Virus record (IMG/VR): IMGVR_UViG_3300020196_000205 | Location: 1-26,394 of that record | Length of the DNA stretch: 26,394 nucleotides | Reading direction: 5' to 3' (one strand) | From: a virus | Shown: piece by piece, positions 17,329 through 20,457 of the stretch | Numbering within the stretch: the first letter of the stretch is position 1 | Layout: every line of letters starts with the position of its first letter | Position numbers and translations under genes: made by a program | Notes under the pieces: model-generated | Databases searched by the model: none | What the model was told of the DNA's origin: nothing | The model's input: the letters and a program-made list of their open reading frames with translations, nothing else

Positions 17329-17754
17329 ATGTCTAAAATAGATGATACATTAAGTGATAAATTAAATATAGAAAAGATTCCTACAATTGAGCCTGAATTA
17401 ATTGTAGTTAAAAAAGATTCGAGAGAAGAAGATAAAACAAAGAGTGATATTGTAAATGATTTCAATACAACTCGAGCCAATCTTCATAATCTTTTAGTTA
17501 AAGGTGAAGAAGCATTAGTTCACTCTCTTGAAATAGCAAAACAATCAGAACATCCAAGAGCATTTGAAGTTGTTGGAAATATGATTAAACAGTTAGCAGA
17601 TGTGAATCAACAACTATTAGATTTACATAAACAAACAGCATCTGTAAGTTCTATAGAGAAAAAGAATACAGTGACGAACAATAATGTATTCGTAGGATCT
17701 ACAAATGAATTGAATAAGATAATTAAAAATTATAAAGAAACTGAAGGAGAATAA
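17329..17754 (+). CDS. 16: Terminase small subunit gp16
   Basis: A 141-residue protein matching T4 gp16 (164 aa) along its length: an acidic N terminus with IEPELIVVKKDS, NTTRANLHNLL where T4 has VVRRNMH, the helical AKQSEHPRAFEVVGNMIKQL segment (about residues 64-83; T4 has [20 protein letters not shown]), QQLLDLHKQ (T4 REILKLHKD), and the C-terminal NNVFVGSTNELNKI (T4 NATVFMGSPTELMDEI). gp16 forms ring oligomers through central coiled coils and regulates the gp17 packaging motor. It starts 10 bases after gp54 with GGA as a short ribosome site. Its position among tail genes, away from gp17, is unusual compared with T4. Confidence 0.9.
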   Translation: MSKIDDTLSDKLNIEKIPTIEPELIVVKKDSREEDKTKSDIVNDFNTTRANLHNLLVKGEEALVHSLEIAKQSEHPRAFEVVGNMIKQLADVNQQLLDLHKQTASVSSIEKKNTVTNNNVFVGSTNELNKIIKNYKETEGE

Positions 17755-17758
17755 TAGT

Positions 17759-18508
17759 ATGGCTTTGCCTATGAGTAATACACCGATTTATACTTTACGT
17801 GTACCCTCTACAAAACAAGAGTATAAATTTAGACCATTTTTAGTAAAGCAAGAAAAAGCATTACTAATCGCTTTTCAATCTGAAGATGAAAAGGTAATGG
17901 TGAATACATTAAAAGAAGTTATTAAAGAATGTGTTATTGGTATAGATGCATCTAAACTTTCTTTATTTGATATTGAATATATTTTTTGTCAAATAAGAGC
18001 AAAGGCAGTTGGTGAAACTGTTGAATTGATTGGAAGATGTGATAATGAAGAGTGTCAAAAAAAAGAAGAGAGTAAAAAAGTTATTATTGTAAATATAGCT
18101 GATGTAGAAGTTTTTACACCAGAAGGACACGAAAATAAAATACCTTTATTTGAAGATGTTGGTGTGATGATGAAATATCCATCACTTGACTTATTACTAA
18201 CATTAAAAGATATGAAAACAAGAACAGTTAAAGGTAAAGAAAAAGAAACTGAAACAAATAATTACTTTGATATAGTAGCACAATCTATAGAATACATATA
18301 CGATGGACAACAAATATTTTATACTAAAGATCAAACAAAAGAAGAAGTATTAAAATTTGTTGAAAATCTTACATCTGAACAATTTAAAAAATTGGTAAAC
18401 TTTTTTAATACAATGCCTAAATTGACTAAAGAAATAAAATGGAACTGTCCTGTATGTAATAAAGAACAAGTTAGAAAGATAGAGGGTTTAGCCAATTTTT
18501 TTTCGTAA
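17759..18508 (+). CDS. 26: gp26-like baseplate hub/tail assembly protein
   Basis: A 249-residue protein with the opening I associate with marine T4-like gp26: IYTLRVPSTKQEYKFRPFLV (residues 10-29), then KQEKALLIAFQSEDE. It has two Cys pairs, C94-x4-C99 and C230-x2-C233, that could form a zinc ribbon bridging middle and C terminus. In T4, gp26 helps hub assembly; here the gene stands directly before the probable tape measure, the usual place of a tail assembly chaperone. The last codons read through a run of eight T (18496-18503) just before the TAA, a likely -1 frameshift site into the next ORF; frameshifted product would be about 312 residues. It starts 4 bases after gp16 with GGAG as ribosome site. 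Confidence 0.78.
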   Translation: MALPMSNTPIYTLRVPSTKQEYKFRPFLVKQEKALLIAFQSEDEKVMVNTLKEVIKECVIGIDASKLSLFDIEYIFCQIRAKAVGETVELIGRCDNEECQKKEESKKVIIVNIADVEVFTPEGHENKIPLFEDVGVMMKYPSLDLLLTLKDMKTRTVKGKEKETETNNYFDIVAQSIEYIYDGQQIFYTKDQTKEEVLKFVENLTSEQFKKLVNFFNTMPKLTKEIKWNCPVCNKEQVRKIEGLANFFS

Positions 18509-18528
18509 TGCTCAGTCATGAGTCATTA
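18496..18528 (+). promoter_or_regulatory. Predicted -1 programmed frameshift site (slippery T run plus hairpin)
   Basis: In the gp26 frame the sequence reads AAT TTT TTT TCG TAA, so 18496-18502 is a canonical X XXY YYZ heptamer (T TTT TTT). A hairpin follows: TAATG (18506-18510) pairs with CATTA (18524-18528) and CTCA (18511-18514) with TGAG (18519-18522), with one bulged T and a GTCA loop. The downstream ORF is exactly in the -1 frame. The hairpin contains the zero-frame stop and the ATG of the short ORF. Confidence 0.65.
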
Positions 18529-18696
18529 GTTAATTTTTACAAAACTAATTTCGCATTAATGCAATATCATAAGTATTCACTGACCGAGCTTGAAAATCAA
18601 TTACCCTTTGAGCGTGAAATATATATTGAAATGCTAATCAAACATTTAAATGATGAAAAAGCAAAAGCAGAACAAAGAAGATTAAGTAGAAAGTAA
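18508..18696 (+). CDS. Short ORF, likely -1 frameshift extension of the gp26-like protein
   Basis: A 62-codon ORF whose ATG overlaps the gp26 stop by one base. It is helical and charged, with LENQLPFEREIYIEMLIKHL (about residues 28-47) and a Lys/Arg-rich C terminus. No ribosome site lies at a usable distance before the ATG, and the ATG is buried in a hairpin; the same frame is open upstream through the slippery T run. It therefore probably exists mainly as the C-terminal part of a gp26 fusion, like lambda G-GT. Independent translation by stop-start coupling (TAATG) cannot be excluded. It ends 6 bases before the tape-measure gene. Confidence 0.75.
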   Translation: MLSHESLVNFYKTNFALMQYHKYSLTELENQLPFEREIYIEMLIKHLNDEKAKAEQRRLSRK

Positions 18697-18702
18697 AAAA
18701 AT

Positions 18703-20457
18703 ATGGTAGTACAAGCATTCGGAGGACTCGTAGCAAGAACAGCAGCACAAGGTGCTGGTGCATCAGTAAGAACAGTTGGTGCTGGTAGTGCTGTGAGAGG
18801 TGCTACAAATATTTCATCAACAGTTAGTGGTGTAGCTGGAAGTACAGTTGGTCAGGGAAGAAGTGGAAAATCTTCTATACTTGATTCAAAAGGGAATCCA
18901 ATAATTACTCCAGCCAAAACAGGTGTCGCTCCTGCAGGTGGTGGAGCATCTTTAGAACAGAGTAGAGAAAGTAATGCTCTTCAAGATAGAATGATTAATT
19001 TACTTGAAGCAATTGAAGCTAATACTTCAGGTAAAGGACAAGATGTAGCTTCAACGAAACCTCAACAAACATTAATGGAAAGTGTAATGTCGACACTTGG
19101 TGGCATGATATCAGGAATAGGAGGATTGCTTACTGGGCTTGGAATTTTTAAGGGATTTAAAGATGCTGCAGCTGCAAAAGAAAGAGGAGAAAGTGAATTT
19201 GGTATATTTGCTGAATTTGTTAAAGGTACAATCAAAGGAATATTAAATATTCCATTCAACATAGTTGATAATATTTTAAATTTATTTGATATAGACATTC
19301 CTGATAATATGGGTGATTTAATTGTTGAGGGTGCAATAAAAATGGTTAAAGATCTTGCTGATTATATTAAAAATTTACCTGATCGTATTATGAAAGCAAT
19401 AACAGGTATGATTGAAAATATTGGAATACCAGAGTTTAAAATATTTGGAAAATCATTCGGTCCTTATTATCCTTTCCGTGGAGATGGAGAAGTAAAACAA
19501 GAAGATACACAAGGTCCACCTCAAACAACTACAACTAAAACAGTAATGCCTGAAGCTAAAAACAAAGAGGGCATATCAGACGATTTAAATATAAAAGAAT
19601 TTGGTCCTGATGCAAAAGTCACTGTATCAGGTGGAGAAACAAAAACATATAAAGCAAAACCTTTTAATAAAGAAGCTTATAAAGCAGCTGAAGAAAAACT
19701 GAAATATCAAGAACTTCAAGGAACAACATCATTTGTAAAAGATCCAGTCACAGGTGAAGGAGCAACAATAAAACAAACTTCAAAATCTATGACAAAGCAA
19801 CAAGCAATGGAATTTTTAGCCAACAATAGTGCAAGATACGGATCAATGATTGACCAAATTAATGAATATATTAGATTTGCTTTTCAAGATGGTAAACCAA
19901 TGCCAAATATTAATGAATTACCATTTATGAGACCAGGATCAATGCCACGAGCAAGCAAGGGAGAGGAAGAAAAACAAAAAATGTTTATAGATGCTGTTCA
20001 TACAGTATATCCTGAATTAATTCAAAAATTATATCAATCAAAAACAAAAGATGGTAAGTTCAATACTTCAGATTTACTTAGAGATTTAAATGATCCAGAA
20101 GGTCAGGCAGATTTGCAAAAAGCTGGAGCAGGTTATACAGAAGCAGATAAAAGTACAGTTGCTCTTGATTCTTTTAATCCAATATTTAATGAGGTAAAGG
20201 GTGTAGGATTAAATGCAAGAATAAAAAACAGAGAATTAGAAAAAGCAAACGAATCTCAGAGTGGAAATGCTGTAATGAATAGTTCTGCTGCTGCCGAAGC
20301 TGCAAAATCTAAAGAGTCGAGTAATGTTGTAATCAATGCTCCATCTTCAACTGTAAATGCACCAAAATCATCGAATATGGTAATGCCAGAAAATATAAGA
20401 AATAATGAAACGAGTATGTCTCGATATATAGATAGTCTGAGTGGTGTAAATATTTAA
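18703..20457 (+). CDS. Probable tape-measure protein (gp29-like)
   Basis: A 584-residue protein, almost the length of T4 gp29 (590 aa), immediately after the chaperone-like pair. The N terminus is Gly/Ala/Ser/Thr-rich, residues 120-175 are hydrophobic and Gly-rich (MISGIGGLLTGLGIF), and 175-245 form amphipathic helices with hydrophobic runs (GILNIPFNIVDNILNLFDID), as in tape measures that insert into the membrane. The rest is charged and helical (330-520). The C terminus has a VVINAPSSTVNAPKSSNMV-type repeat and ends in MSRYIDSLSGVN. No enzymatic motif is visible. The assignment is from order and composition, and a different internal tail protein is possible. Arginine is mostly AGA, as in the other virion genes. 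Confidence 0.6.
   Translation: MVVQAFGGLVARTAAQGAGASVRTVGAGSAVRGATNISSTVSGVAGSTVGQGRSGKSSILDSKGNPIITPAKTGVAPAGGGASLEQSRESNALQDRMINLLEAIEANTSGKGQDVASTKPQQTLMESVMSTLGGMISGIGGLLTGLGIFKGFKDAAAAKERGESEFGIFAEFVKGTIKGILNIPFNIVDNILNLFDIDIPDNMGDLIVEGAIKMVKDLADYIKNLPDRIMKAITGMIENIGIPEFKIFGKSFGPYYPFRGDGEVKQEDTQGPPQTTTTKTVMPEAKNKEGISDDLNIKEFGPDAKVTVSGGETKTYKAKPFNKEAYKAAEEKLKYQELQGTTSFVKDPVTGEGATIKQTSKSMTKQQAMEFLANNSARYGSMIDQINEYIRFAFQDGKPMPNINELPFMRPGSMPRASKGEEEKQKMFIDAVHTVYPELIQKLYQSKTKDGKFNTSDLLRDLNDPEGQADLQKAGAGYTEADKSTVALDSFNPIFNEVKGVGLNARIKNRELEKANESQSGNAVMNSSAAAEAAKSKESSNVVINAPSSTVNAPKSSNMVMPENIRNNETSMSRYIDSLSGVNI

Follow-up and report, generated by a model that had tools for sequence, protein, structure and literature searches.

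A probable -1 frameshift joins gp26 to a gp51-like C-terminal domain in a single tail-assembly-chaperone gene

Results

In the window, that is, the whole stretch of 26,394 nucleotides analysed, gene 26 and the small ORF that follows it form, with a probability of about 0.93, one tail-assembly-chaperone gene whose long form is made by a -1 frameshift. The initial annotation had proposed that a programmed -1 shift joins gp26 to a short C-terminal extension, and comparison with relatives supported this proposal. Judged from sequence, a -1 programmed ribosomal frameshift at T_TTT_TTT is very likely. The features concerned are the following.

17759-18508, + strand: gp26 ORF, putative short chaperone form (TAC-N), 249 aa; Pfam T4_baseplate 2.3e-54, PHROG 150 3.5e-59
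18482-18487, + strand: GAGGGT, Shine-Dalgarno-like, candidate upstream stimulator, 8 nt before the heptamer
18496-18502, + strand: slippery heptamer T_TTT_TTT, within T8 (18496-18503); T_TTT_TTN in 140/140 non-redundant loci
18502-18696, + strand: -1 frame extension, gp51-like C-domain, 64 residues plus stop; PHROG 634 1.2e-23, aligned with T4 gp51 200-244
18506-18508, + strand: zero-frame stop TAA of gp26, sharing bases with an ATG as TAATG
18506-18528, + strand: hairpin, candidate downstream stimulator, 9 bp, one bulged U, loop GUCA
18508-18696, + strand: ATG-started version of the -1 ORF, 62 aa; ATG 18508-18510, stop 18694-18696
18703-20457, + strand: ORF that follows immediately, tape measure candidate by position and size, 584 aa

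Slip site and reading frames in the window

The 3' end of gp26 reads GAG GGT TTA GCC AAT TTT TTT TCG TAA, with the heptamer just ahead of TCG TAA, near the gp26 stop as first described. It falls at codon 246 of 250 and is the sole in-frame instance of T_TTT_TTY among the 21 window genes examined. The window sequence also confirmed that the second ORF lies exactly in the -1 frame and that this frame is open over the heptamer, the closest -1 stop upstream starting 25 nt ahead of the first Phe codon. Recomputing the predicted fusion gave 248 + 64 = 312 residues with the junction ...NFF/FVMLSHE..., both identical to the earlier prediction. Another slippery run, A8 at 18057-18064 (CAA AAA AAA GAA), is present inside gp26. 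As a shift site it was set aside: the -1 frame stops there after five residues, and the run lies within an insert that the cyanophage relatives do not have.

The overlap of the gp26 stop with the start of the second ORF (TAATG) was missing from the initial annotation, and it allows a rival reading, termination-reinitiation, in which gp26 ends at TAA and ribosomes restart on the overlapping ATG to make a free 62-residue gp51. The annotation of gp51 as a separate gene in some databases (e.g. P-SSM4 PSSM4_014.1) would fit such a product. At the window junction, no Shine-Dalgarno core is positioned for this ATG, in agreement with the original claim that the second ORF has no usable ribosome site. 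Among the 78 relatives found with the gp26 profile (see below), 47 have no ATG ahead of the conserved core and 25 have neither ATG, GTG nor TTG, yet all keep the frame and the T run; only 2 of the 78 have a start codon with a suitably spaced Shine-Dalgarno core. Moreover, reinitiation would not require six Ts, and T4 gp51 holds the N- and C-domains in one chain. We therefore regard reinitiation as a very improbable account of the locus, although in the window lineage a minor free C-domain product could arise through TAATG. Frameshifting accordingly stays the preferred reading.

Conservation of the T run and frame among relatives

The gp26 profile picked up 80 loci, reduced to 78 by removal of near-duplicates, with named phages included (first set). 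A scan with the C-domain only added 62 further non-redundant loci (second set), for a combined sample of 140 non-redundant IMG/VR and phage loci. Alignment of the junction across these relatives, the check that the initial annotation had called for, showed the T run and the -1 frame to be kept with no exception in either set. T_TTT_TT[CT] was present in all 78 loci of the first set (56 TTC, 22 TTT) and T_TTT_TTN in 62/62 of the second, as T_TTT_TTY in 55 and as T_TTT_TTA or T_TTT_TTG in 7. In these seven the second Phe has become Leu (TTA or TTG) and the six Ts are retained; the persistence of T6 while Phe changes to Leu is a direct argument that selection acts on the nucleotides. T_TTT_TTC was also found in Delftia PhiW-14, Aeromonas AsFcp_2, Vibrio CZ01, Citrobacter Ci1, Ochrobactrum ORM_20 and Vibrio Bakedbeans. 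In the relatives the -1 frame codes for a conserved domain and is open across the site, and the second domain lay in the -1 frame wherever its profile matched, including 62/62 of the loci selected by the C-domain alone. These alignments establish, at the level of sequence, the slip site, the frame, its openness and the C-domain homology of the frameshift locus.

Codon usage in the first set pointed the same way. The first Phe codon is always TTT, as compared with 74% elsewhere in the gene (p 8e-11, 78 loci), and the codon preceding it is always NNT (78 observed versus 52 expected, about 1e-14), values that overstate independence since the loci are related.

The sequence variation at the site bears on a further rival, slippage of RNA polymerase on T8, by which mRNAs with an altered number of Ts would give the long form from edited transcripts. 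The window lineage does have an 8-T tract, and the same fusion would result. However, many relatives have only six Ts followed by C, A or G, and a six-T tract is too short for efficient polymerase slippage; besides, the phase of the heptamer suits tandem tRNA slippage. Edited transcripts are thus even less probable than reinitiation as the source of the long form, and tRNA slippage on the ribosome is retained.

Each of the complete phage records searched contained a single N-domain locus and at most one detectable C-domain locus. In the complete relatives checked, one N-domain gene is adjoined by one C-domain, unlike in T4, where the C-domain lies inside gp51. In Vibrio CZ01 the N match falls in two pieces of one gene. 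Some public genomes carry the gp51-like extension without any annotation (L007 3214-3390, L013 3217-3384). In a group of Ackermannviridae-type loci (L011 3214-3238, L100 2229-2253, L105, L016, L101 and L102), A_ATT_TTC or A_CTT_TTY replaces T_TTT_TTY; the C-domain of these loci is still in the -1 frame.

Candidate stimulators around the slip site

Upstream of the heptamer, the Glu codon located five positions ahead of the first Phe is GAG in 53 of 67 relatives of the first set versus 27% elsewhere in the gene (p 5e-19, to be read with the same reserve about relatedness), which places GAGGGN about 8 nt before the site. In the second set, GAG occupies this position in 14 of 27. GAGGGN may stimulate the shift from upstream, as the corresponding element of dnaX does.

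Downstream, the 9-bp, one-bulge hairpin reported initially is indeed present, and its 5' arm contains the ATG of the second ORF. As evidence it is ordinary when taken alone: 19 of 200 shuffles folded as well, the z-score for 60 nt was -1.42, and we rejected it as strong stand-alone evidence. An unremarkable hairpin is what one might see if gp26 and the second ORF were genes independent of each other, with the T run a coincidence and no fusion made. Against this stand the frame and heptamer, universal in 140 loci, and the codon bias relative to background, so that chance is hardly credible and the least probable of the accounts considered.

Relatives were more informative for the proposed frameshift signal. 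A 45-nt segment beginning 3 nt downstream of the heptamer folds more stably than its shuffled versions (mean z -1.46, 38% below -2), as compared with means of -0.55 to +0.08 at nine other offsets. L006 and L017 retain the stem seen in the window, whereas L028 does so only in part, its outer stem being lost. In one clade an 11-bp stem begins 5 nt downstream of the site; two of its pairs show compensatory double changes, and 95.5% of cells are paired. In another clade a less well supported 9-bp stem occupies an adjacent register. Both counts lean towards structures, as the clades were chosen because they fold. Together, GAG enrichment and downstream folding in relatives support candidate stimulatory elements near the site.

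Protein families, T4 counterparts and predicted structure

The match of gp26 to T4_baseplate (PF12322) spans residues 9-248 and lies above the cut-off. That of the -1 ORF to PHROG 634 ('baseplate hub assembly catalyst') covers nearly the whole ORF, which also matches the C-terminal end of PHROG 150 (positions 237-280 of 282); this suggests that in some phages both parts occur in one chain. NCBIfam gave no significant match for gp26 or the -1 ORF. Against the family profile that we built, T4 gp26 (208 aa) gives a match up to its FF end (2.4e-18), and T4 gp51 (249 aa) has the C-domain at 200-244, aligned with the -1 ORF at 1.6e-7, together with a weak N match, both E-values coming from a search of seven proteins only. 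By these alignments, the second ORF is the C-domain of gp51, carried within gp51 in T4. At the slip position, T4 gene 26 reads GAG TTC TTT GAG (G_TTC_TTT): the slippery run is gone, and each form has its own gene, gene 26 encoding the short one and gene 51 the long one. Acinetobacter phage AB-Navy4 likewise has two separate genes, arranged as in T4, and no C-domain locus was detected for it in the search of complete phage records.

Window gp26 contains two cysteine pairs, C94/C99 and C230/C233, that resemble a zinc ribbon. Such pairs also occur in T4 gp26 and in the Ackermannviridae-type proteins; in the cyanophage relatives NPNT replaces the second pair.

The AlphaFold2 model of gp26 (pLDDT 87.8) ends in a helix at 243-248, and that of the -1 peptide is helical from residue 2 onward, which would fit one helix running unbroken across the junction. 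A fold search of the PDB with gp26 returned as most probable match the HK97 chaperone 2ob9, with a probability of 0.63 but an E-value of 0.72, below significance; 2ob9 and 3fgx were sub-threshold fold matches only. The C-domain fold search was uninformative, and the sequence search found no solved structure.

Neighbouring genes

The initial annotation had placed a tape measure gene after the frameshift locus. A long ORF does come directly next, starting a few nt after the -1 stop, and in 75 of 89 loci an ORF of at least 250 aa lies no more than 400 nt away. Its identity, in contrast, comes from position and size: the 584-aa product had no family match in Pfam, PHROG or NCBIfam, and assignment by homology to T4 gp29 was dropped, with no significant match. 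It is a candidate tape measure protein. On the other side, a gene resembling the terminase small subunit (17329-17754; PHROG 445, 1.1e-38) separates a tail-tube-like gene from gp26.

Discussion

In the mechanism that we propose, most ribosomes would stop at TAA 18506 and release the 249-residue short form. A fraction would pause at the site, perhaps aided by the upstream GAGGGT and the downstream hairpin, and two Phe tRNAs would slip back one base on T_TTT_TTT to give the 312-residue long form, whose C-terminal end is a helical domain of the gp51 type. On the model of lambda G/GT, the tape measure would be coated by many short subunits and a few long ones, and the C-domain of the long form would recruit tail tube subunits. 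For the window phage, we infer the efficiency of the shift, its stimulation, the chaperone function and the partners.

gp26/gp51 is probably a chaperone pair of the lambda G/GT type, as first suggested, and the comparison fits because the second ORF is the gp51 C-domain that is fused inside T4 gp51. With lambda and its long-tailed counterparts the window shares a short protein, a -1 slip within a few codons of its stop, a long fusion with a C-terminal domain and then a long ORF. The likeness shown here is one of arrangement, and the lambda slip site differs from the T_TTT_TTY of the window. One record speaks against a chaperone: gp26 of Dickeya phage LIMEstone1 (L100 1447-2253) is listed as a confirmed structural protein. 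Chaperones of the G/GT type are usually absent from virions and are expected to leave the finished tail.

In T4-like phages, tail assembly chaperones were reportedly identified by Vladimirov, Gautam and Davidson in 2022 (Virology 566:9-15), with gp26 as the short form and gp51 as the long form. Going by the T4 genes, the window apparently encodes the same two proteins; T4 and AB-Navy4 keep two separate genes, whereas the window would make both forms from one locus. A passage of PMC10885494, drawing on Vladimirov et al. 2022, describes some T4-like phages as having a short gene alongside a longer, fused one, and a passage of PMC12846349 credits the same study with poly-T -1 slippery signals in TAC-N genes of T4-like phages. 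As far as these passages go, the frameshifted kind of chaperone is already known and the locus type of the window probably is too. As PMC12846349 describes the layout, the chaperone locus of Vandenendeviridae/Andersonviridae, which are different phage families with the site GTTTTT, likewise carries a conserved -1 site rich in T where TAC-N ends, and a C-domain that is missed or misannotated, as here.

G-T frameshifting is held to be widely conserved, with T4 listed as an exception (PMC5009743). It is conceivable, though we consider it somewhat doubtful, that frameshifting is the ancestral state of T4-like phages as a whole, with a signal in three parts (GAGGG, T_TTT_TTN and hairpin), that the two T4 genes are a late hard-wired replacement after duplication, and that certain Ackermannviridae even seem to use non-canonical shift sites. 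If so, the statement that T4 is the exception would become one of secondary loss of recoding.

Databases name these proteins 'baseplate hub' or 'hub assembly catalyst', and the second ORF is often missed or split. Reading the locus as one frameshifted gene corrects the annotation in many marine T4-like phages, and the locus offers a clear comparison of recoding with gene duplication for the same job.
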